DNA of 64,000 nucleotides from Amaurobius ferox (Eukaryota > Arthropoda > Arachnida > Araneae > Amaurobiidae), in contig OX578135.1 of assembly GCA_951213105.1 (NCBI GenBank), positions 163,463,250 through 163,527,249 of the forward strand. The letters run 5' to 3'. A program made the position numbers and the translations under genes. Positions 17,800-50,900 of the stretch are shown piece by piece. The stretch's first letter is position 1. Every line of letters begins with the position of its first letter. The notes under the pieces are model-generated. The model was not told the origin of the DNA and ran no database searches. It saw only the letters and a list, made by a program, of their open reading frames with translations.

Positions 17800-19378
17800 C
17801 TGTAACAACAGAAAATTAGTGCTTTTCAATAAGGATGTATTTAAGACATTGGAGGGTTCAAATCCGCAGAACTGAAAACTTTCTGGCAAATGTCTCTAAA
17901 AAGACATTGTAAATCTACATTTTTTAAAGAAAAGTATCCCCAAAACCCCATCTAAGATGAATACTCTTAAATTTCTGATCAAAATACACTGCTGTTCTTC
18001 AATATACAATACTATACAGAGCTTTTGAATATCTATGCATATGTTGCATGTAGATAGTTATTTACTTTTTTTTTGTAGATATTTTCAGAGTAGAAAAGAA
18101 AATGTATCTCTTTTATCTATACCATAATCATTAAATTTTGTGCATATGGATACCTGTTAACTAAACTTAATGAAAATCCAGAAGATTATATAAAAATTCA
18201 GAAGATTTTTTGACATCAGTTTGTGATATGATAATTTAAGTACCTAAATCTTCATCCTAATAATATTGTTAAGAAAATATACCTTCTTTTCATCATGCTT
18301 GAAAAATAAATTTTCCCATAAAAAAAAAGATGAAATAAATATAAAAATTTTAGTAGATGCAAACAGATTGCAAAATCTAAAATATTTTCATAATAAAATG
18401 AAATGCATCAAAGATTGTGGACAAATGCAGATTTGCACAATATTGCGAAATAGTTTTTCACAAATTATTAATACATTAAACTTGACATTAAAAAATGTAT
18501 AAATACTAAAACAGAACAATTGGTGGGGGTTTTAGCACAGAGTAGAGAATTTTGCCAAAGTAAAAGAATTGGTTTTTAAAACCTTAGGGAGATTTTCCCC
18601 AAAAAACATTTAAAAGCAAAAAATTCAAGCGTTTTGCTTATTATCTCAGAGATCAGTATAACATGCAAAAACGATAATTTGAAGTCAATCAGGAGTAGTC
18701 TTAAATCTTGTTTTATAATTGCTAATTTTATTTTTTCAACAAACAAAAACTCAAATTCATATAAATAGATTTAGAAATGCAATTTTCAATATTCAGAAAC
18801 TTTATTTTAATAGATAGAATTTACATCAAAAATGATGCTTTATTTTTGTGTTTTGTCTAAAAAAAAAAAAAAACGTGAATCTTGACTATGTGAGCCGTCT
18901 ACTCGACTTCCATCCCCTTTTAACTGGTCCATTCCATCATGGTTTTAGTCTCGCGTGGTGAGAATTTCAGTGGCGGCGGTCATTTGTGAGTTGCTTTTCT
19001 TGCTTTTTGTGCATTTGTATGTTGTATTTTTCATGATCATGTGTTATTTTATGGTATTTTAGGCACAGATTGCATAAATTGTTAACCACATGTTTTTATG
19101 CAATCACAGAAACAACTGATTTTAGTATATCTAAATAGAATGTGTCCCTGAAGATGTTTCTGGCAGATATATTACAGGTTCTGGCGTTTCTGACATTGAT
19201 TTATTTTCTTTTTCCTGGTCATTCAATGGTTTATTTTCTTTTTTCTGGTTCTATTTACTTTTCCTATCCTTTCTTGTTACTTTTTGCTTTTAATGTAAAT
19301 TAAATACACATTGATTTATGATCCCCGGTTTGATACTGTGTTTACAGATATGCACTCCTGCACATTTTGTTTTTTTAA

Positions 19379-19410
<32 letters not shown>

Positions 19411-20295
19411 TGACAGATCATACTCTAGCATTTCTAAATAATTCATAATCTCCATGTCTTCTTCTAACAGTTAAACAATTTGTATAATTCCTTTTAACCT
19501 GCTTTGAGAAAACTGCTTAGTCAGTAACAAAAAATTCACTGTAACCGGTTCTGAGATGATTGGTAATACACATGCTTTTCCAGATAGGGGAAGGAGGGTA
19601 CGGTCCCTGTGGATGCCTCCCCCACTGGGTTCCGGTCTAAATTGGGTGGCACTTCCCGGCCGTCCATACAGTTACCTTACACCTTTCTGGTAGGTCGGAC
19701 GGTCTGGGTCTCAACAACAACAACATGCTTTTCCAGAAATACCACAGTACTAGGGGTAGATATATTTTCATTTTATTTTCATTATATTCTTTTGATATTA
19801 CTTTATAATACTTTGCATCCTCATTTCAATAATTAGCCACAAGCTGGTGTAACAAAATATTTTATATTCATGTTTGATTTTTATGTGTATTTGATCCACT
19901 TTGTCTTTTCTTCTATGTCGGGCCAGTTACATTATTTCTGTAATACATTTTACAGTTGTGTAAACAGAAACGTAGAATCAGTATTAATGAAACATGTATG
20001 GCCCTTGATAACGTACATGGTTTCAGAAATGCTTTTCATATTCATTTTATTCCTTTTATATTCACTAGATTCCATTTATTCAATTTCCAAACTTCTTGCA
20101 TAGCTCATCGTGCTACACTAGGCTTCTGATTTGCAAAAACCTTCAGTTTACAAGCAATTTTCTTTGGTATTTCTCGGGTATATATATATTACAAGTAATC
20201 ATAAAAATCTTCAATTATATATATATATATATATATATATTGGTAGAAGAGGAATGGTTCATGCCGCATGGTAATACAATTTTCTTATTACATTT

Positions 20296-20326
<31 letters not shown>

Positions 20327-22249
20327 TGTTAGATTATTTAAAAAATAATAGTCTTTTTAAACCTGATTTACATTCCATCAATAGTATTAAATTGAAAATT
20401 ATCAATATGTATAATGATTTAAATATTAAATATAAATATCTTAGATTTCCTTATATAGTGCTTATTCCAAAATTTCATAAAAATCCTATTAAATTTAGAA
20501 CAGTTACTAGTGGCCATAATACTTACTCTACTACTGCGAGTAAATTATTACTAAATTCTTTAAATCTAATAAATAATAGTTTAAGCCAGACTAGCAATAA
20601 CTACCATATTCTAAATAATAGTAAAGAATTAAAGAATAAATTAACATCTCTTAGAAAAATAATAGGATTTCAAACTTTTGATTTTAAAGATCTTTTTAAT
20701 AATATTAAGATATCTGATCTATATGATGTAATTTTAGCTCTATATAATGCTTATATTACACCTCTTTCAAATCAAATTAAATTTATAAATTTTCCTAAAC
20801 TTCTTCACTTTGTTATTTTCAATAATTATATTTTTCAAGGAAATAAATTATACTTACAAGTCTCAGGAGTTCCACAGGGTGGCTGTAGTAGCAGTATGCT
20901 AGCTAATTTATACCTTTATCATTATGAAATGTCATTTACTTCAATAGATTATACTTTTTACAGATATGTTGATGATCTGATTTGCTTAGTACATACAGAA
21001 AATTATCTCATAGATATAGATTACTATCCAGACAATTTGGAATTAATACCTAATGAAGCTACTATTAATAAAAATGTTAATTTTTTGGATTTAAATCTTT
21101 TTATTGATCCTTCTAATAGAATTGTTACAAATTTATATGATAAAAAAGACTTTTATAATTTTAATATTAATAAAATCTTACCTTTTAATTCCTGTAACTC
21201 GATTCAATTGTTTAGAAATATTATAGTCAATCAGCTTTTTAGAATTTATAGATTATCTGATAAAAAATTTCATGCTATGCATATCAATAATTTCAAAATT
21301 ACTAGTAATTTATATAAATATCCCACTTATTTAGTAAATAGTATTGTTAAAAAATTTAAAATAGCTGGATTTTTATAATTCTTTCCATAGTATCATATAA
21401 TTCTATTCATAGTATCTTATATTAGCCAGTCATCTCCTTTTTTTTTTTTTTTTTTTTTTTCATTCACTTCCCACTTCAGCATTACCTTTATATGCCCCTC
21501 TTTTTAGTAGCTCTTTTTGTATATTAATACTTTTTCTTTACATTTCGCTTCACAGTTTTTCAATTCTTATGAATGGCAACAGTAAATGGTTTTTTATTTT
21601 TTCTTTACGAATGGCAACACTGGTCTCTTCTATCAGTGTTCCCTCGATCCCTGTATTGAATCGACTGTACACACGCTGTGCTTTTTCCAGGTATTCATTT
21701 TTTCTTTTTTATTCCATCTTTATGTATGTCGTCCAAGTAGAAATAGTTCATAGATTTAATCTATCTATTTCTTCAGAAACATACATTTTTGAGTTTGCTT
21801 CTACAAAAAACTTGGACATGATTAGATTTTTGTAGAGGTTAACAATTCATGATTTAGGCTTAGAGCCTCGTCCACGTGTAAGGCGTTTGTGCTTGATTTC
21901 GTTTGTTATACTTATTTCGATTCCATACCTTTGTATTATATTTTTCATTGACTTGTTGATTCGATATTAATTTTTTTTATTTTTTCCATATGCTTGAGGA
22001 TTAATTGATTTTTACATTTGTTTTGTACGCCTGTTAGATAGTTGAATTTAGTTTAAGTTTTTCTTTTTTTGTTTCCATACCTTTTAATTTGGTTGATTTT
22101 CAGTAACTTGATAGCTAGTGTTTTGTATTTTTAATCCATTTGATTGATGATTTGCTGTATTATATTTTATTCTGTGGGTGTTTTTAAAAAGTTAGGTTTA
22201 TCGTGTTACATCTTCTTACTTTTCGTTCATTGGATTTTCAAACTTCTAT

Positions 22250-22289
<40 letters not shown>

Positions 22290-24124
22290 GTAAATCCAAT
22301 GGTAGAATGTAAGTAGTAACTCATAATACACTATCTTAAAATTTGCCTACAAAATACAATGAAATAAAGTAAATTCAATCATATAGAGGAAATTATAAAA
22401 CGTAATGCAGGTCATAAAGACAAAGATAATCAACAAATTTCAAAGGTGAGGAATGAAAATAGGAAAACCAAAAAATCAAGCAAAAAAGCTTGCACGTGGA
22501 AGAGCTCTAGGCTTAAGAATAGTTCATTTCGAAAAAATTCTTTTTCAAGTCCATATATCCCTTCGAAATGAACATAAAAATGCTTGTTTCTGAAACACAA
22601 GATAGATTTTATCTATAAACTTGTGTTATATGGACGACGAGCATAAAGATTGGAAAAAAATATAGGAAATATAAATACCTTAAAATACACCTCTTAAAGT
22701 TCAACCATGATGAGTAATATATGACTAGATCAATGTTGCCATACGCAGAAATGAAAAGAAGTTATCTGCTGTTGCCAAAGAGAGTAATAAAAACTGTACT
22801 GTGTAAAGTCAATAAAATGAGGTATTCTACAGTAAAAGCTACAAAAGTAAAAGATGAAAATATATTATAATGTAAATTCAAGAGAATGTAGAAGTATGGC
22901 TAAAATAAGATATTAAGGAGAGATTATAAGAATTTTAGGCTAATCGAAACTTATTAACTATTCCATTCACTAAATATGCTGGATATTCATAAAATTTATT
23001 GGTAATTTTGAGGTTATTAATGTGCAAAGCATGAAATTTTTTATCTGATAATCTATAAATTCTAAAAAGTTGATTAAGTATAATATTTCTAAACAATTGA
23101 ATCGAGTTGCAGGAATTAAAAATAATTTATTAATATTAAAATTAAAAAAATCTTTTTTGTCATATAAATTAGTAACTATCCCATTAGTAGGTTCTATAAT
23201 TAGATTTAAATCCAAATAATTAATATTTTTACTAATAGAAGTTTCATTAGGTATTAATTCCAAATTATCCAGATAGAAATCCATATCTATGACATAGTTA
23301 TCAGTAAATACAAGACAAATCAGATCATCTACATATCTGTAAATTTTATAATATGTTGAAGAAAAGAATTTTTCATGATATAGGTATAAATTAGCTAACA
23401 TACTGCTACTATAGCCACCTTGTGGAACCCCTGAGACTTGTAAGTATAATTTATTATCTTGAAAAATATAATTATTGAAAAGAACAAAATGAAGAAGCTT
23501 AGGAAAATTGGTAAATTTAGCAAGATGAAATTTATTAGTAATATAAGCATTATATAAAGCTAAAATGACATCATAAAGATCAGTAATCTTAATATTATTA
23601 AATAGATCTTTAAAATCAAAAGTTTGAAATCTTATTATTTTACCAAGTGTTTTTAATTTATTTTTTAATTCTTTACTATTATTTAGAATAATGTAGTTAT
23701 CACTAGAATCTTGTAAATTACTATTTAGTACATTTAAATAACTTACTAATAATTTACTAGCAGTAGTAGAGTATGAATTATGATCACTAGTTACAGTTCT
23801 AAATTTAATAGGATTTCTATGAAATTTAGGTATAAGCAAAATATATGGAAATTTCAAAAATTTATTATTAATATCTAAATCACTATACATATTGATAATT
23901 TTCAATTTGATACTATTAACAGAGTGTGAATCAAGTTTAAATAGACTATTATTTTTTAAATAATCTAACAGATATTGTATATAGAATTTTTTACAGATAA
24001 TAGCATAATTATTAGAGGCTTTATCAACATAAATAATAACAAAAGATCTATGTAAATCATTAACAGAGTGTTTTATATTATCCATATTATATATAGATCT
24101 AGATAAATTGATACTACAAATGGC

Positions 24125-24210
<86 letters not shown>

Positions 24211-26947
24211 AATAACGATGAGTGGATTTCAATAGGAAAGGTTCCACATATGCTGAGTTATACCAAAAACCATTTCGCTACCAAAGGAAGAGGCGCAAAG
24301 CTGCTCTATTTCCGAAGTAGAATACAAAGATACAAATGGAAAGTATAGAACGGGGGTGACCATATGTCTTTCATAAAATGGTAGGGGTGGATTACGACAC
24401 CCCTTTCCCGTTTAAAGCAGCTTTTACCGCCCGGGCAACGCTCACGGTACCTATGTAATACAATGGTCAGTCCTCCATACGTGCAAAGACAAAAGCACTT
24501 CAACAGTAACAAAATCAAAAAGGAGACCTGGAATGGATAAAAGACGCCATAGATTACTGTTCCCAGATTCCACAGTATTAGTAAGTCAATTCGCGCATGC
24601 GTGTTGAGATATCTTTATAACAGTATCGCAGATACGTTTAAATACGCTCAAAATCACAATTGAATAAATCAATGTCTTTGTCTTCTTTGAAAAAGGGATT
24701 ATAATAATTTTTTAAGAAGTAAAATGGATGTTGTTTTTTTATGGCTTTCTTTACTATTTTTTGGCTGTTATTTAGTCGTGTATATCCCATATTGCCGATG
24801 TTTACTGATTGACAAATCCAAAAAATCCACTGTTCCGTCTTCTTTTACTTGATTTTTGATTAATTCTAATTCACTTGGATAAAACTTGAAATCAAAGTTT
24901 GGGGTGTGCTCAAAATACCCCAAAAGCACATCGTCAACATAACGGAAGTAAGGCATTTCTGATAAAATATGGGTTCCCTTTTCGTATTTTGATAAATATA
25001 TATCCGCAAGCATAGACGAACAGCATTCTCCCATGGGTATACCTCTAATTTGTCTGTAAAAATACTAAATAACTCTCAATTTAAATAAATAAATAACTCA
25101 AAAAAATAATTCTAAAAAATCTCATAAATAAATAACTCTCAATTTAAATAATAATTGGAAAGAAATCAAAAATAATAATATATAATTTCATTTCTATTTA
25201 ATATTAAATCAATTGATATTGGTATTTGATATTAGTAGATTAGTATATTTTACATTGTTGGGAACAGATTGCATAATTTTTAACTATGTGGTACATGCAA
25301 TCATAGAAACAGTGAAATTTAGTATATCTGTTAGAATGTGCTCCTGAAGACGTTTCTAATAGAAATATTTTTCACTGAATTTCATTTATCCATTATTTAT
25401 AAATTTTCCAAAATATTTCCATTTCCAACTCTCAGTAGTCTCCTTTGGGACTTGATATGGGACCATCATACAAATTTCTTGACAAAAACCATTCCCTAGT
25501 TACAATATATAACACAATAACAGTAACATTTTTAATTACCATAACCACTACTAAATCCCTTGAGTATTGTGGTGCGATTAATAATGTGTGTGTGTGTGGA
25601 AAGGGGGGGGGGATGTAATATGCATTTTCTCATGAACTGCTTTCTAGACCAGGATTCACCTCTGATATATATATATATATATATTCTGTTACCTTGGATT
25701 TGCAATACTATCATAATGTGAAACATATCACTTATTAGTGAACAATTAGATAGCTGTACATCGTATATTGAAAAGTTTTACATGTGAGATGGGTAAAGTT
25801 TTTTTTCCATGAAATTTCTTGGGGTAAGATAAAAATCCCAGTAGCAACAATTCGTTTGGTAACAAAGATTCATCTTCAGACACATCGAGTCTAAACACTT
25901 TTCTAAACACATCCCTAGATACATTTGAGTTAGCCTAAACACATTTTGATTGCATGTGAATTTTTAGACAACAGTCTGGAGTTATGTTCATCTTCAAACA
26001 GAGACACACTGCTGGAAACATGCTGAGTTCTTAGAAGAAATCCAACAATCTTTAATTTCGTAAAGGTGTATGAAGATAGTTTAATGCAGAATAGATTATG
26101 ATAAAAGGGAGTTACGACAGGAAATCTTACCTTTGATGATTGTACTACAAGCAATGATTATGTGGATAAAGAAGCACAAGAAATTGATTAATTACATTAT
26201 TCCTACAGTTGCTGATAATGTGTTGTTGTTGAAACCCAGACCGTCCGACCTACCAGAAAGGTGTAAGGTAACTGTTTGGATGGTCGGGAAGTGCCACCCA
26301 ATTTAGACTGGAACCCAGTGGGGGAGGCATCCACAGGGACCGTACCCTCCTTCCCCTACCACAAACCTCTCGGAAGGACTTTCGGACATACATGTTTAAC
26401 GTGATCGTACTCCGCATGAACACGGCGACAGTTTTGGCAGTGGCTGGAATCGAACCCGGGCCTACCGAGTGCAACTCCAGCGCGCTAACCAATGGGCTAC
26501 CACACCCTGCTGATAATGTGTAGAAGACCCAGACCGTCCGACTCGTCCAGAGGACTAATAATGTGTGTAAAATCTCAATTCTGCTGATAATGTGTGTAAA
26601 ATCTGAATTCAGAGAAACAAAAATTGATTTAAAAATTGGGAAAATACGATCAAAAATGGTTGTGGCAAGCTCTCCAAAATGATTCAAATATTTCAAAGCC
26701 CACATCCTTAACTCAAGTGACAATGGAGATGCAGTAGGAAAAGTACTATGCAAATGTGTTGTGAATTCAAATGTTAAAAGAAAGTTACAGATTTTTTTTC
26801 AATTTAAATAAAAGAGCAATACATTTTAACTTTACTATAATTATTTTTTGTTTCACAATATGCAGGCATATAAGTCATTCTTATTGTTTATGTCGTACTT
26901 AAAGATTTTATTGGTTACTGCGAATATCAGTTATAACGAACATGTTT

Positions 26948-32900: not shown

Positions 32901-35900
32901 AAACGTACAGACATCGCCAAAATCCTTTTATTTTTTTGTAGAGCTAGTGGGAAATTTGACATTGTTTGTTTCCCACTATTCTTTCAATGTCTGGTTCAGT
33001 GTTGGATATAGCGATCCATAGGTTTCCCTCCAAGTGTTCATCAGCTAGACGAGAACGACCTTCCGATTTCACTTGTTTCATTAATGAAAATGATTGTTCA
33101 CATAAGTAGGTGCTCCCGAATAATGTTATCGTTTTTCGACCGTGAATTTTCAATTTTTCCATTTCACAAAGCAAGGAATTTCTCTAAAATTCTTGCAAAG
33201 AGACTTCGGAAAATTTAGCTTTCAATTCGGAGTTACTCTAAATTTCGATAAGCTCCATCTGAAAATTGACGGGCGCTGTTTCAATATTTGTCGCGAATGG
33301 TATTGCAAACACTTCCAACGATTTCTCAAGTTTTTTGATATCTTGAAATCGACGACTGAACTCATTTTGCAGATTTTCTACTAGTCTTAAAGAAAATGTG
33401 ATATAGAAAATGTGATATAAATTTTTTATAATAGTTTATGGTGCAGTTTTTCTTTTCTTTTTCTTTTTGCAAAAGTTTTGGAATTTTTTTATGTGTTCGC
33501 CAAGCTGAGGCTGGCGGCGGGCCGCACACAATTAAGCCGCGGGCCGCGGGTTGTGCACGACTGATGTAGATAAACTGATTATGCACAAGTATGGGAAGAA
33601 CTTTTAAACTAAATAATTGTCTTAAGCAGATATTTTCTCTCAAGTCACTTGTTTCATTTACCCCATATTGATATATGGAAAATAGTTCCTAGCCTTTAGT
33701 TTGTTCAGTTTTATAAATTTTCCTAGCTATTTTCTATCGAGTATAGATACTGAGAATAAGAAAGTTTGTACATTTTTTAAAAATCAATAATCTAATTAGA
33801 CATATTTCTAATATTTTTATAAAATGAACATGTTCAATGAATTTAACATTTACTTTTAACACTTTTAACTATTTTATCAATTTTATAAAAACTGAATATT
33901 TCAAATTCCAAAGCTTTGCTAATAATTTTTTAGAACAATTAATATTTTGGTTTCTGTATGGTGATCAGATTTGCATGATTGGCAATTTAATTTAATCTAG
34001 TAACTGGGCGTTCAGTGAAATATATTTTGAAATATGATTTTATTGAATAGTGTTTAGGCTAAGTTGAGTTGATTGGCATTTGATGAACCATTTGTTGAGA
34101 TTATAACTGGTTACAGTTTCATAGTGATCAGACCTGGTTTCTAGATAACTGTATATTTAGTTAGATGCATTTTTTTTTAGAATGGAGAGGTTCTTTGTTT
34201 CTACATTCAAATGACGGGTATCTGATTGACCAAACATTTGGTAAACTATAATGTAAAAACATTTTAAACTTCATTACATATAGTATCAGAAATAATAACA
34301 AGGAATATTGAGAACCAGGAAATAAACCTGTCAACAGGCATATAATTGCAAATGTTATGCTTAAAAAAAAAATAATTAAAAAAAAAATAATAATAATAAT
34401 TAAAAAATAAATAAATAAATAAATAAAATAAAATATATATATATATATATATAAGAAAAGTTTGAAAGTCCAATGAAAGAAAAGTGAGAAGCTGTAACTC
34501 GAAAAACCTAACTTTCAAACAAATTTACAAAATAAAAGTATAAATCAGCAAATCTTCAAGCAAATGGAAAAAAATACAAATTTCGAATCATCAAGTTAAA
34601 GAAAATTATCAAAAATCAATGGTATGGAATTGATAAAAGAAAAACAGATGAAATCCAAGCAATAATGCTATACATGTGGCCAAGGTCTAGGCCTAAATCA
34701 TGGATTTGCTCACTTCTTCAAACCTCTTTCTCAAGTCCAAGTGTCTTGTAGAAGCAAACACAAAAATGCATGTTTCTGAAGAAATAGATAGATCATATCT
34801 ATAAACTATTTCTACTTGGACAACATACATAAAGAAGAAAAAATAAAAGGAAAAAAGGATATCCGGAATATAACTCAACAAAAGCACAAACTTGTCAAAC
34901 CCAGGAACCCAGAATGAAGAGACCAGTGTTGTCATTCTCAAAGAAAAGAGATATGATCTACTGTTGCCATTCGTAAGAAATAAATAACAGTAATGCGAAA
35001 AGGCAAGTATAAGAGATAATATACAATCAGGAGGAGCTAATAATAGAAAGGCTAATGTGTAAGTGGATGTAGAAATAAAATATTATTAAAACAAGAGTAT
35101 GGAGATATATGGCTAATATAAAAAGCTATGAATAGCATTCAAGAAAATTCAGTTAATCTAAATTTTTTAACTATACCATTTACAAAATAAGAGGGATATT
35201 TATATAAATTGCTGGTAATTTTTAGATTATTAATATGTATAGCATGACATTTTTAATCAGATAATCTATAAATTCTAAAAAGCTGATTAAGTATAATATT
35301 TCTAAACAATAGAATCGAGTTGCAGGAATTAAATGGTAAGATTTTATTAATGTTAAAATTAAAATAATCTTTTTTATCATATAAATTAGTAACAATACTA
35401 ATAGAAGGTTCAATAATAAGATTTAAATCAAAAAATTAATATTTTTACTAATAATAGCTTCATTAAGAATTAATTCCAAATTGTTAGGATAGAAATCTAT
35501 ATCTATGACACAATTTTCAGTATATACTATGCATATCAGATCATCAACATATCTGTATAATATATAATCTATTGATGTAAAAGACTGTTCATAATGATAA
35601 AGATATAAATTAGCAAACATGCTGCTACTGCAGCTACCCTGTGGAACTCCTGAGACTTGTAAGTATAATTTATTTCCTTGAAAAATATAATTATTGAAAA
35701 TGAAGAAGTTTAGGAAAATTTATAAAACTGGTTTGAGTTGAAAAATTAGTAATAAAAGCATTGTATAGAGCTAAAATTACATCATACAGGTTTGAGATCT
35801 TGATACTATTAAAAAGATCTTTAAAATCGAAAGTTTGAAATCCTATTAGTTTGTTTTTAAGTGATATTAATCTATTCTTTAATTCTTTACTATTATTTAG

Positions 35901-38900
35901 AATAACGTAATTATTGCTAGACTGATGTAAACTATCATTCATCTGATTTAAAGAATTTAGTAGTAATTTACTCGCAGTAGTAAAGTAAGAATTATGACCA
36001 CTAGTTACTGTTCTAAATTTAATAGGTGAAATTTTGGAATAAGCACTATATATGGAAATTTAAGAAATTTATATTTAATATTTAAATCACTATATATATT
36101 GATATATCACTATATTGATATATATATATATATAAACTAAAATTTTTAAGTGACATTTTTAAAAATACTTATAACATAACATATTGCCGCCCAGGCGGTG
36201 TAGTGGATAGCGTCTCCGACTGCTGTCTAGTGGGCTTGGGTTCGAATCCTGAGTAAGGCATGGGCGTTTTCTTGAGGAAGAAGTCAGTCTTCCGCCTTCT
36301 GGGTCCTCGCCAAATGTGAAACTGCACCCCCCCACACCTTCGTCAGTAATTTATGTTGTTGAGCAACAACAACATAACATGTTAGTCTTCATATTTCTGT
36401 TAATGTACATTGCGTAGATTTTTTATTTGAAAAAACTGATTTAGTACATTTCATATTTCCTTTACTTTACCTTGCAATTAAATCAATAATAAATTCATGC
36501 ATTTTATAAAAATAATTTTTATTTAAATTTTTATTATTTAATATATTCATTTTCTGTACAAATTTTCTTCAACATCCTGTCTGATTCAGGGTTGATGGAC
36601 ATCCTATCTGCCTCAGTGGGAGGTGGGTATAAAATGAATACTTAATTTATTTTTACTATAATACATTATAAAATTTGCACTGAAGACCTATCAACGAGCA
36701 CTTATAGAACTTGCATTAAGCTTGCAGAAATAAGGAAACATTTTCATTTTTTTTCTGATGAAGCTTCATGAAAGTTATTTTATGTTAAACAAAATATTAC
36801 AACAGAAATTACTATGCCTGAAAATTTTCAAATGAAAAATCTGTATCACTGATGTAAGTACATATACAGAAAAATGCAGTTCAATGACTTATAAAAGCTG
36901 AACAATCCTTATCTAACATATTCCATTTTTTAAATCTTTCTCTGTATGTTTACTGAAAAGTCAGCTTTAACCAAAATATCACAGGCTAGTGCTCCTCTGT
37001 GGCAAAAGTATGTGATAAATACATATCTTGCAACCAAACTTGACATGTTTCATCACTTTTTATGATACTTGCAAACTTTCTTATTAAGTTTTGAATTTTC
37101 TGCTATCATAAGCCTTCTAACATAAGAGTCAAAACTGACTATACTAAAAATGTACAACAAATGTGTATAAAATGAAGAATAATTTTATTGGAATGAGCTG
37201 ACTTTTAGGGCTAATGAATAATATTGTAGATATCAATCTCAACATTTTTTATGTATCCTTATTAGTGCAAGATCACTTAAATGGGTGTTTAACATGGCAT
37301 TCCCCAGATATGATTTAAATTGTTTGTTGAAAAATATAGTGTTCTGGTTTAGTGGTTGCAACAGAAAGTGTAGCCAATACTGTTAACAATTTTAAACATT
37401 TGAAAAAAAATCCTTATTGCAATTAGGTAGAAGCTTATAATTACAAGATTACTGATAAAGATTGAGCACATTAATATTCTGTGCATAAACTTTTATGCCA
37501 TCATGCATTCTATAAATCTACTTTTGCTTTTATCAGTTTGAAAATAATCAATGTAAGGTAAACAAAATAAAATACACTCATCAAACAGTTTTGAAAGTGA
37601 AATACGATTCTAGTTTTTAGATTTAAACTGAAGGTACTTTTGTGAAACCAATAACTGCAATCCCACGATAACAAAATTAAAATTAATATATTTAAAATAA
37701 AAATAAGTATATTTCCTTATTAAAGTTATTGCTAGACCAAATTTAACATAAATGAATTATTTATGTGCAGAATCCAGTTTATTTTGACTATGTAATGATT
37801 CTATACAAATAAACTAGAATAAATATTAGTATTTCATCCATAATTTTATTTGCTTACACCTAAAAAGAGAGAAAAGCAAGAGCTTACTTTATACTAGTTT
37901 CCTTTCTTTTAGATAAGAAACCTCCCTCTGGAAATAGAATAATCCAACGTCTATTGCGTCCTACAAAAATATTCAGCAAGTGATCTCTCAATTTTTTCAT
38001 CTGAGAATCACGAACATTTTTGCCCTGAAATAATATCACACATTTTTAGTGGAACAAGTACTAATGAAATAAAATTAAATGTTAAAGAAATCGAAACATG
38101 TTTCATTAACAAAGTTATTGATATAAATAAAATGACATTATAGTAAATAGCACAGGCATTAAAATAGTTTAATTTAAGAATTTATAAAATACTTTATCAA
38201 TAAAACTGGATATATAGGAAACTGTAATTTATATTTCCTATATAGGAACTGTAACTATATTTCCTAATATTGGATTCGTTTAAGTCTTGTAGCAGACCAA
38301 TACACAATTCGAATGATATGTAACAGTGGAAATTCATTCTAAGTACAGTGGAGCACCATTTATATGTTTTTTACATTTATACATCGTTTCAGCGCAATCC
38401 CGATTCATTCCTAACCATGTAATGACAAAATATGTCGTTTAAACGACGCAAAACTTTGGTTATAAGTAATTTTCCTAGTTTTTCCACTGATAAATCTTAC
38501 TAAAATTCGAAAATTTTCATTAGGATAGAACATTTGGGAATAGCCACCACAAAGGTAGAGGTACTCTGACCACTGTTGCAAAGGTTGCCACTGTTACAAA
38601 TTTAGAGCGCTTTTTGATTCTCAAAGAATTCTCACTCAAGCTGTCAAATTTACATGGCAACCCTAAACTGCACCTGCTGTGGGAAGAAATCACCCCTACT
38701 GTAAAATGACCCAATGCTTACAAAACGAAAAGAATGAACAATGAGAGGGTCTATTCATTAAACTCTTTTATTTGATAAGCAGTTCATTCTCGAATCGAAT
38801 TCCTATGCTTTTGAGAGCTCACGTTTCAGTATTGCTGTCCAGTCTGTCAGTTATTATCATTCTGTTGGTTTCTTAAACTTAACGTTCTCCAAAAATATCT

Positions 38901-47900: not shown

Positions 47901-50900
47901 TGGTGGTTCTGATTTAAAAATCATGCGATTGAGAGATGTAAATGAAGATAGTGAAATGTTGCTATATGCTTTAGTGTGAAAGTTATTTAAAAGATATCAA
48001 TGTGGGTGATGTTTTTGGATACTTTTGGTCCAAAATTAGAGTTCAAATGTCAAAGATATGCAATTTCTTTAGTTTTCTGAACTCTGGATTAAATACAAAC
48101 AGTCAAAAGCCTTTTTAAAGGACATTAATTGTTTTAATATGTATTTCATTGATAATAGTATTACACAAGTAATAGTTAACAAAACAAAGAAATTTTCAAG
48201 GCTCATGTTTCAAAACAATGGGGTGCAGTTAGGTCTCTCAAATTGCATTAACACCCATGTATTTCTACAATAATAGTAGATGTATATTAAAGCAAAGTTT
48301 TTATAGTACGATTTTCTCGCTGCGATAGACTTAGCATTAAAAAGTGCCTGGGTCTGGAATAGCAGACATTATATATACTCTATATATTCTATGTATACAG
48401 GGTGTCCCAAAAACATTGACCTCGGCTTTTATTCCTTAAATATTGATCTTAGACATATATAATAAATTACAAAGTTGCATAAAAAAGGTACAGAATTTTA
48501 TGAAATTTATGAATTTTCCGAAATGTGCGTAAAAGACGGCTACTTTTTTGCGCTAAGCCTTACTCTCGAAAAAAATTCACTAAAAATCACCCGTTCAACA
48601 CAGCATTCTACTTTTTTCAGGAAGAAAGGAAATACTTATTTTCTATTTGATGTATATTTTTTATTCAAATTTTCTTTTATCAAAATATTAAAAATTTTAG
48701 TGTATATATGTTTTAGGTACAGATGGATAATTCTTTGGCATATCCTTCTGATTTTTTAAAACTGTACCACATATATGCATATTCTTAGACAACAAATGCT
48801 TTGCGAGTACAGGAGAGGTAAAAAATTTATCCAAATACAAAGAATATCCTTTTCCTAAAAGTTCACTTAGAAATGTTTTCACAACGCGTTCTCTATACCC
48901 ACCATCAGAGCTTGATAATTCCGTGTCCTTTCCAGTATACGCAAGGAAATTCCATTTATAGCCTGATTCTGACAATTTATATATTTTTATTCCATATCTG
49001 GACCTTTTCGAGGGGATATATTGACGAAATCCCAGCCTTCCTTTCCATGAGAACAAAGATTCATCAATGAACACATTTCTTCTAGGAGTGTATATAGATT
49101 TAAATTTTGAAACAAATGCATCTAACACGGGTTTCAATTTATCTAGTTTTTGGGCATTACTATCAAGAGTAAAATGAAGGTAACGTAATATTCCTATAAA
49201 TCGATCGCGACTCATAACGAATTAAAAAAAGGAGTACTGATAATATTGGATTCTTAGAAAAATACATTTTAAGATTTGGTTTTCTGACAATGCTTGTCAA
49301 AATTACTAGTGCGAGAAACACACGAAATTAGTTTCCTGTCACAGGTGTAAATACATTTGAAACAGGTGGAGTCTTCGATGTGGAAGGAGAGAGGAGATTT
49401 TTCTCCCATTTTTTCTTTGCAAACTCATTAGTTGCTTTTACGATAAATTCTACTAGTTCATCATCAAAAAATATGCTAAAAAAATCAAGTTCCTTATCTA
49501 AATTAGGCAGCATGATATTGTGATTTATTCCAGGTATGTTCAAAAACTCCAAAGAATTCAGATCTTTCAAATCACATGTCCAAACATCATTCGAGAAACA
49601 GCAACAGAAGCTGGCGGCATTGTAATAATAGTACGCTCAGAATCTGAAGAATCAATTGCATTTTCAGATTCATCATCAGAAATAACACTGTTCCATGAAT
49701 CTTCACTATCTGCTTTGCTTGCATTACTGTCTGGTTCGTTTACCATACGCGTATATTCTTCCACAGAAAGAAAAAGTCTCAAACCAGCCATACTTTTATC
49801 CGAAATAGCCTAATCACTTCACTGTCGCACATTCCTTTAACCCCCCTCCCCCCCCAAACAAAATACTCTCTTATATTCCTGTAATTCACCAACGAAAGCA
49901 TTAAAAGCTAAAATCAAAAGGAGACCCGGAACTCAATTATAAAATTGTTGATGCTGCGAGAAGTGCAAATAATTCATTGGATTCTCCATGTGCCAAGGTC
50001 AAACATCTATAAAATACATTTAAGTTGCTTCCACGGGCATTTAACGCCATCTAGTAGACAAATAAATTCAAATGAAAACGCTTCACATAGAAACACCAAT
50101 ACGTGCCACTCGCCGTTTAGGGTAAAGTTCTCTCCGGCACCAGTGCGTACCGTACGTCCTTGAATGCAAGTTCGCAGCCAGCACGCGGGCGTGCCAACCG
50201 ACGCAAATGGGTTAAATTTATCGTGTTTCTTAAAAAAAGCAAACATGCTTCTATTAATATTGTTGTTATCAGCAATAACAGACAATATATTAAGATCAAG
50301 TTCTTTTAACTTGCAAATTAACATAGATGCCAAATTATAGAGCTTTTGTCCCATGAATGTTGAAACTGGGGCAATTGCTATTACATCTTTATAATTCGAA
50401 AACATAGATGTAATCAAAAACACTTGGGCAGTTTTTGCTTTTTCATTACTATCAAAACAATCACCGGTAACTTTACCACATTTAAACGTATACCTAGGAT
50501 CAACATAAATCTCATCAATTAAGAGAGAGACAAATTATTGGTCTTTATTTAAGCATTGTACCCTACATTTTAAATAACTATTACACGGATTAAAAAAATC
50601 TGAATCCACATTTAACTTTTTTGAAATTCTACTTAATGTTCTCACATGAGGCAATGTCAACATCCTTGAATTTCTAAATGCCTTATAGCACGAAGAACTA
50701 GATAAGTATATTTTAAAGCATAGAATAAACAGTTCTTGTGAAAATCGAAGCTAATTGTTTGGTATTTCTAGCAGTTTTACTTGTTCAATTAAAAAGTCTA
50801 ATTTGGCGGTGCAAATTTCTAAACATACCTGCTTCTGTTTCTCCAACAGCTTCACTGCGGCTTCGATATAACTAAGTTGTGATGGAGTAGAATGCACAGT

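Follow-up and report, generated by a model that had tools for sequence, protein, structure and literature searches.

The DNA analysed here, a stretch of 64 kb that we call the window, very probably encodes a type-SGC hammerhead ribozyme that cleaves itself, a variant built around a four-way junction and placed some 350-410 nt after the reverse transcriptase (RT) gene of a tandemly arranged, Naiad-type Penelope-like element (PLE). A preliminary description of the window had noted three copies of a covarying pseudoknot, had taken their two-sided base changes as the mark of a selected RNA structure in a Penelope-like element, and had left open whether such a structure would serve RT recognition or act as a ribozyme. 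All three copies (c1, c2, and c3) were found where they had been placed, with helices A, B, C, and D present, and the claim of selection on RNA structure is now strongly supported by covariation and by shuffling and sliding controls.

The fold is larger than first described. An extra 8-bp helix, helix III (ATGTATGT/ACATACAT), lies just 5′ of the start originally given; in c1 it pairs 21722-21729 with 21779-21786, beginning 9 nt upstream of that start, and in c2 it shows two compensated pairs together with one C.A mismatch. Helix D, previously put at 9-12 pairs, is 17 pairs long in each copy, with 48 of 51 cells paired overall, and c1, previously delimited as 21731-21839, covers 21722-21843. 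When the three copies are aligned over 46 pairs, 97.1% of the 136 cells are paired and 12 pairs carry two-sided changes, a level of pairing and covariation that none of 500 shuffles reached. Sliding the partners by 1-3 columns lowers pairing to 34-49% and leaves 0-3 two-sided pairs. The same structure emerges from a de novo helix search on this alignment, which ranked D, B, A, and III highest; together these four have 12 two-sided changes, and the top four helices of any of 300 column-shuffled alignments had no more than six. A nested minimum-energy fold recovers III, B, C, and part of D, and stem I is absent from it, as is expected of a pseudoknot.

Once helix III is added, the structure can be read against the hammerhead, for which we use the customary position numbering (e.g., U16.1, H17, G12). 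A single base (C, C, and U in c1, c2, and c3, respectively) stands between the 5′ strand of helix III and helix A, and the base before it is a U, which gives U16.1-H17. GAA precedes the 3′ strand of helix III, the first base of which is an A that pairs with U16.1 by inspection of c1-c3, and NUGANNA stands after the 3′ strand of helix A, which is stem I. With helix III and the core strands GAA, NUGANNA, and U-H17 in place, the fold therefore reads as a hammerhead in the permuted order S-G-C, its strands running III5′-C17|stem I 5′, then UCA-GAA-III3′, and then stem I 3′-NUGANNA-II5′. The earlier statement that this was not a canonical hammerhead, CTGANGA being absent, is literally right for c1-c3, but the conclusion that it was not a hammerhead is wrong, because the core blocks are present in another order; sister families, moreover, carry CUGANGA itself.

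In c1 (21722-21843, forward strand), the 5′ strand of helix III is followed by H17 (C) at 21730, the predicted cut at 21730|21731, the 5′ strand of stem I (21731-21738), hairpin B/C (21739-21772), the 3′ strand of stem II (21773-21775), and G12A13A14 (21776-21778). Beyond the 3′ strand of helix III lie the 5′ strand of D (21793-21809), the 3′ strand of stem I (21810-21817), the core AUGAUUA (21818-21824), the 5′ strand of stem II (21825-21826), and the 3′ strand of D (21827-21843). The same fold occupies 22522-22644 on the reverse strand in c2, with III5′ at 22644-22637, H17 (C) at 22636, the predicted cut at 22636|22635, stem I 5′ at 22635-22628, B/C at 22627-22594, the core UUGAAAA at 22548-22542, and D3′ at 22538-22522. 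It recurs at 34708-34830, likewise on the reverse strand, in c3 (III5′ 34830-34823; H17, here U, 34822; stem I 5′ 34821-34814; core UUGAGAA 34734-34728; D3′ 34724-34708).

The block order of site, GAAA, and core is that of the non-circular type SGC permutation, and helix D joins the distal ends of stems I and II. Type SGC hammerheads were discovered in metatranscriptomes and cleave in vitro; in them a helix connects stem I to stem II at their outer ends, the linker is typically 3 nt, and 580 of 583 predicted sequences retain all critical positions (Eckert et al., 2023; PMC10085705). With that type (HRIMA-1 motif and variants) the structure described here shares the block order site-GAAA-CUGAnGA, stems I-III, the extra helix, and a predicted cut after UH, but differs in having hairpin B/C for the linker, a four-way junction, a stem II of 2-3 bp, and a 3-8 pair that may also be U-A or A-U. 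The hairpin between stem I and stem II measures 31-38 nt; because it occupies the place of the short type-SGC linker, stems I and II come together with B and D in a near-perfect four-way junction, with 0 unpaired bases in our segmentation of c1-c3 and of a further copy, Y. The ribozyme fold is a variant of type SGC and not a plain member. Searched against the ribozyme regions, the Rfam hammerhead models, which represent the canonical nested type, gave no match, permissive thresholds included.

Further copies were sought in the window with structural descriptors. A two-stem descriptor in SGC order recovered a fourth, dissimilar copy, c4, at 19911-20025; 14 of 200 shuffled windows also contained one match, and this evidence is therefore weak by itself. 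A relaxed descriptor found Y at 25252-25369, with the core CUGAAGA and a homologue, X, that is alike over 19059-19173 only. The full four-way-junction descriptor matched exactly six sites (c1, c2, c3, c4, X, and Y), with scores of 23.6-43.9. Among 100 shuffled windows searched on both strands, a single match scored 16 or more, at 19.4, and when 63 decoy trinucleotides replaced UGA they yielded one match of at least 20, as against six with UGA. The core differs from CUGANGA in four of the six window copies. The string CUGANGA followed by GAAA occurs 14 times in the window, and one of these occurrences is the core of Y. The descriptor gave 0 matches in six 10-kb grid stretches elsewhere in the genome (60 kb sampled), and density outside PLE-rich regions is low in this small sample. 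Scans with relaxed descriptors matched nothing in 13 stretches of the loci L001, L010, L012, L041, L049, L054, L065, and L069; in L041 and the two L049 copies, bases of the core or of stem II are altered.

The three additional window copies all lie on the forward strand. The descriptor match c4 represents a divergent family, with helix III formed by TTCTATGT/ACGTAGAA, H17 (C) at 19919, stem I by GGGCCA/TGGCCC, the core UUGAUAA at 20005-20011, and helix D by 19988-19998 with 20015-20025. Y has its canonical core at 25344-25350 and H17 (U) at 25259, and pairs 25252-25258 with 25309-25315 in stem III, 25260-25266 with 25337-25343 in stem I, and 25321-25336 with 25354-25369 in helix D, its hairpin spanning 25267-25302. 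X has the core CUGAAGA at 19147-19153 and H17 at 19060, and is 76.5% identical to Y over its 115 nt only. It is without stem III, and its homology to Y begins at the predicted cleavage site.

Beyond the window, a search of the genome (3.56 Gb, 276 contigs) placed the same fold in neighbouring copies of two further families, E (core CUGAUGA) and G (core CUGAAGA). The covariation that had been claimed for helices A (stem I), B, and D holds beyond the starting copies. Nine representatives, including G2, a relative of G, were aligned by position from the junctions; those other than c1-c3 came from the descriptor, which partly imposes their core letters, and these letters are therefore not independent evidence. 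Of 367 cells 328 are paired and two-sided change is seen at 35 of 43 positions, totals that none of 1000 shuffles equalled. Stem III contributes 64 paired cells of 71, stem I 62 of 67, B 57 of 63, and pair 3-8 all nine; helix D has 116 of 132 cells paired and two-sided change at 14 of its 16 positions. Read in the polarity of the RT strand, G.U cells number 29 and A.C cells 8, so the fold has the polarity of that strand. Stem II, of only 2-3 bp, is paired in 20 of 25 cells: 10.3-11.3 switches between A-U and U-A, 10.2-11.2 is mostly G-C, and 10.1-11.1 is often unpaired, as A.A or C.A.

CUGANGA is the core in X, Y, E, and G, while c1-c4 keep U4, G5, A6, and A9 and have U-A or A-U as the 3-8 pair, which is C-G, U-A, or A-U over all the representatives. 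H17 is C, U, or A among the nine. The sequence stem III-U16.1-H17-stem I is seen in c1-c3 and imposed on descriptor matches, just as G12A13A14 with A15.1 is found by inspection in c1-c3 and demanded by the descriptor elsewhere. Five divergent near-complete copies were found by sequence similarity instead, a set that leaves out three partial E copies (L010, L054, and L057). All five keep pair 3-8 (C-G, U-A, or, once, U.G), and the four having stem III keep 30 of its 31 cells paired; B and D are less complete in this set. One of them, L041, has U4 changed to C, and its 5′ end adjoins (TA)n two or three bases past the cut site. The 131 nt of the c1 ribozyme are identical in 40/40 genomic matches (best 40 of 869 candidates), and the c4 ribozyme is 98-100% identical in 40/40 (best 40 of 938 candidates).

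The host appears from its sequence to be a tandem Penelope-like element of ~4.5 kb, of the N-terminal endonuclease (Naiad) type, that inserts in (AT)n. In a tandem array the units are spaced 4494 and 4500 nt, with one ribozyme per unit. An ORF of 864 aa at locus L062 carries GIY-YIG (PF01541) at residues 71-158 (23.0 bits; cut-off 22.6) and RVT_1 (PF00078) at 566-740, and it is from this locus that the union of endonuclease and RT in one ORF is read, the window copies themselves being 5′-truncated. Element 1 retains an RT-coding remnant at 20392-21378 on the forward strand (Pfam RVT_1, 39.7 bits), 5′-truncated and without a C-terminal endonuclease, and its RT stop precedes the c1 cut site by 352 nt; at loci of the c4 and E families the RT gene and the ribozyme after it are about 380-410 nt apart. 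Upstream of c2 on the c2 strand, element 2 (22970-24247, reverse strand) scores 23.9 bits for RVT_1, below the curated 29.6, and is 73% identical to element 1 over 275 aa (tblastn). Element 3, an RT-coding remnant with broken frames, lies at 35145-36088 on the reverse strand, upstream of c3 on the c3 strand. Elements 1 (+) and 2 (-) have their ends head to head at a (TA)n tract (22248-22285), which in element 1 comes after the position that corresponds to +522/+525, where RT starts in genomic copies. Compared with the protein of the c1 element, RT-coding matches are 41-48% identical at c4-family loci and 61% identical in family E. A separate RT fragment at 24804-25058 on the reverse strand belongs to a different PLE subfamily, with 44% identity to element 1 across 87 aa; its 3′ flank enters a long (TA)n at about 24125-24206 and holds no descriptor match.

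Insertions of the element have fixed 3′ ends. Among 40 alignment rows with c1-like 3′ ends, a number that counts overlapping loci twice, 22 end at +521 to +542 after H17 and eight at +668 to +692, while five continue into a tandem unit and five are divergent or cut by the locus end. L062 and the c1-family loci thus present two alternative 3′-end regions, near +524 and near +680 past the cut; the first class stops at UAUUAUUAU, after which genomic (AT)n follows. Between the two roles left open at the outset, the evidence favours a ribozyme. RT starts ~520-690 nt downstream in the c1 family, not at the fold.

For 5′ ends we counted copies that adjoin (AT)n at a 5′ end lying between -7 and +5 relative to the cut, an interval of 13 positions. 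The c4 family has 35 such sites; 25 of them lie at +1, where the predicted 3′ product begins, and the other ten are spread over seven positions. In the c1 family seven of 12 lie at +1, two of them doubtful in that their upstream bases also resemble stem III; the 12 come from 40 distinct places, the rest being without homology past the 11-base anchor or starting at +6 to +9, and the reversed anchor pattern alone matched 44 rows. An upstream control of 14 positions gave four sites, three of them at the innermost position. Among the matches listed for family G (100 of 128), there are 45 sites, with 13 at +1, 12 at -1/0, seven at +2/+3, seven at +4/+5, and six further upstream. Among those listed for family E (100 of 155), the 44 sites comprise ten at +1, seven at -1, five at +2/+3, 17 at +4/+5, and five further upstream. 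The E and G ends just upstream of +1 (-1 and -1/0, respectively) are ambiguous, since H17 is A there, which (AT)n can mimic; the +4/+5 cluster of family E is accordingly at least as large as its cluster at the cut (17 against 10, or 17 with the ambiguous ends, among the matches listed). The peak at +1 is clean in the c4 family and less clean in c1 and G, and in E it stands beside an equal or larger cluster 3-4 bases further on. At these +4/+5 ends of family E, AGTTCC follows (TA)n; these ends may reflect target microhomology or cutting at a second place. Copies of the c1 family selected by a match along all 131 nt show no peak at the cut, and a set selected in this way could hardly show one.

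Seventeen c4-family copies beginning at +1 were examined further. The +1 base follows AT-rich DNA in 16; in the seventeenth, L081, a second ribozyme starts 86 nt further on. An A/T run stands ~0.3-0.5 kb downstream in 15 of the 17, and in L082 and L087, where no run satisfied our definition, the alignment ends at +353 and +321. Past the A/T run, the 15 tails are similar in only three of 105 locus pairs, and in shifted register, which implies that most tails do not continue element sequence. We read the concentration of 5′ ends at the cut predicted from the fold as a footprint of self-cleavage.

We infer that the nuclease is the RNA and that its activity has a place in the life cycle of the element. 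Stem III, stem I, and the 2-3 bp stem II would form a catalytic three-way core around U16.1-H17, G12A13A14-A15.1, and N3-U4-G5-A6-N7-N8-A9, and the four-way junction of distal stems I/II, helix D, and hairpin B/C is supposed to replace the loop-loop contacts of ordinary hammerheads. Cleavage would occur after H17 (21730|21731 in c1). Tandem transcripts would in this way be cut into RNAs of unit length, each starting with the 3′ fragment of a ribozyme. If the ribozyme beside the RT start were cut first, RT would run off after ~0.3 kb (c4 family) and leave a short solo insertion, and X may be such a solo copy, its cDNA having ended at the cut. A full-length insertion, by the same logic, would need the ribozyme upstream of the RT start to stay uncut.

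Several observations weigh against the ribozyme reading: c1-c4 are without C3 and G8, stem II is short and often unpaired at 10.1-11.1, family E has at least as many ends at +4/+5 as at +1 among the matches listed, the six 10-kb stretches and L001 gave no descriptor match, and hammerhead mutants of a canonical PLE still inserted in vitro (PMC11167929). One might suppose a once-active hammerhead that has died in c1-c4 through the loss of these two bases, as the departures from CUGANGA in most window copies would permit. Positions 3 and 8, however, change jointly with pairing kept, the c1 version is invariant in the best 40 of its 869 candidates, the c4 family with its UUGAUAA core has the sharpest 5′-end peak at the cut, and a swapped 3-8 pair is reported to rescue activity partially in the Anolis element PAc (PMC11167929), so that we regard loss of activity as very unlikely. 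We give a slighter chance still to a protein-binding or RT-recognition element that has a hammerhead-like fold and does not cut. The fold does lie upstream of the RT start, on RNA that the protein of the element must bind, C3 and G8 are absent in c1-c4, and for PAc a region needed for insertion lies near the hammerhead, where cleavage needs protein (PMC11167929). A binding element, though, has no need for UH, UGA, A9, and GAA at exact hammerhead positions, which is what the decoy test probes, nor would it explain sister families with CUGANGA or the accumulation of 5′ ends at the bond predicted to be cut.

The clustering could have another cause, such as an RT stop at a stable fold, transcription starting at +1, or a short element that is non-autonomous and always begins at the same base, and the shortness of the c4-family +1 copies examined and the second cluster of family E, at least equal among the matches listed, lend this some weight. 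An RT coming from the 3′ side, however, reaches the 3′ strand of helix D before the other helices, and a stop would be expected at that strand, not at the III/I junction. The +1 cluster appears in four families of different sequence, a coincidence that four unlike ribozyme families would all have to share if a non-autonomous element were responsible, and the tails past the A/T run differ. We consider these causes unlikely. HDV-like and pistol ribozymes also have interleaved helices, and a different pseudoknotted ribozyme (HDV-like, pistol, or twister) might be entertained on that ground, as might a chance structure. No Rfam ribozyme family matches the ribozyme regions, permissive thresholds included; the HDV-like and pistol readings were dropped on this count, L001 having been searched as well, and the nested double pseudoknot with P1.1 of HDV-like ribozymes is not present. 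The earlier judgement that the topology is not that of HDV thus stands, the strand order being unlike the HDV layout in that the hairpin comes before D5′ and D3′ lies outside. With chance excluded by the covariation, this group of explanations has virtually no prospect of being right, and the type-SGC hammerhead with a four-way junction remains our reading of the fold.

Naiad/Chlamys-type PLEs reportedly carry an N-terminal endonuclease, and their clade is said to be without canonical hammerhead motifs. The element described here has in common with them, as they are reported, the N-terminal GIY-YIG with RT downstream, tandem pseudo-LTRs, and insertion in microsatellites, and a permuted hammerhead would explain what replaces the missing motifs. 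R2 elements have an HDV-like ribozyme at the RNA 5′ end; in both systems a ribozyme would set the 5′ end of retroelement RNA, and the ribozyme classes and element classes are unrelated. A closer counterpart is PAc of the Anolis PLE, which likewise has a hammerhead in the PLE tandem-repeat region, fixed internal RT starts downstream, and AT-rich targets, but has the canonical hammerhead layout, whereas ours combines the SGC order with pseudoknots, a position ~350-410 nt after the RT gene, and an N-terminal GIY-YIG (PMC11167929). Hammerhead mutants of PAc still inserted in vitro, so that cleavage was dispensable for insertion under those conditions (PMC11167929). Our literature search, which covered few subscription papers, found no earlier report of a four-way-junction SGC hammerhead in a retroelement, and both the junction and the setting look new.

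If this reading is right, a non-circular hammerhead permutation published until now from metatranscriptomes acquires a eukaryote-like genomic setting and an identified host element, a natural four-way-junction hammerhead with natural swaps of the 3-8 pair becomes available for mechanistic study, and a substitute for the canonical hammerhead is suggested in Penelope elements with an N-terminal endonuclease. We think it reasonably probable that Naiad-type elements as a group carry an SGC hammerhead with a four-way junction, that any Watson-Crick 3-8 pair is accepted, and that the ribozyme cuts in vivo and leaves its cut sites written as the 5′ ends of solo insertions. Ribozyme activity could then be read from such 5′-end clusters, with the genome sequence as the only data required.

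Searches of viral contigs by pattern and by RT alignment returned no match, and among prokaryote contigs there was one eukaryote-like contaminant, L001 (NYSS01000008.1, filed as a Planctomycetota MAG), which is 24% identical to the GIY-YIG/RT protein over residues 67-718. It is probably eukaryotic contamination of a bacterial MAG. This distant element has endonuclease-like sequence upstream and no match to the ribozyme descriptor, and long direct repeats can be seen by eye around its coding part. Elsewhere in the window, 36180-36330 and about 19590-19720 have by eye the look of tRNA-derived SINEs, the former with a B-box-like GGGTTCGAATCC, and a 172-aa ORF at 48697-49215 on the reverse strand presumably resembles a piggyBac-type transposase.
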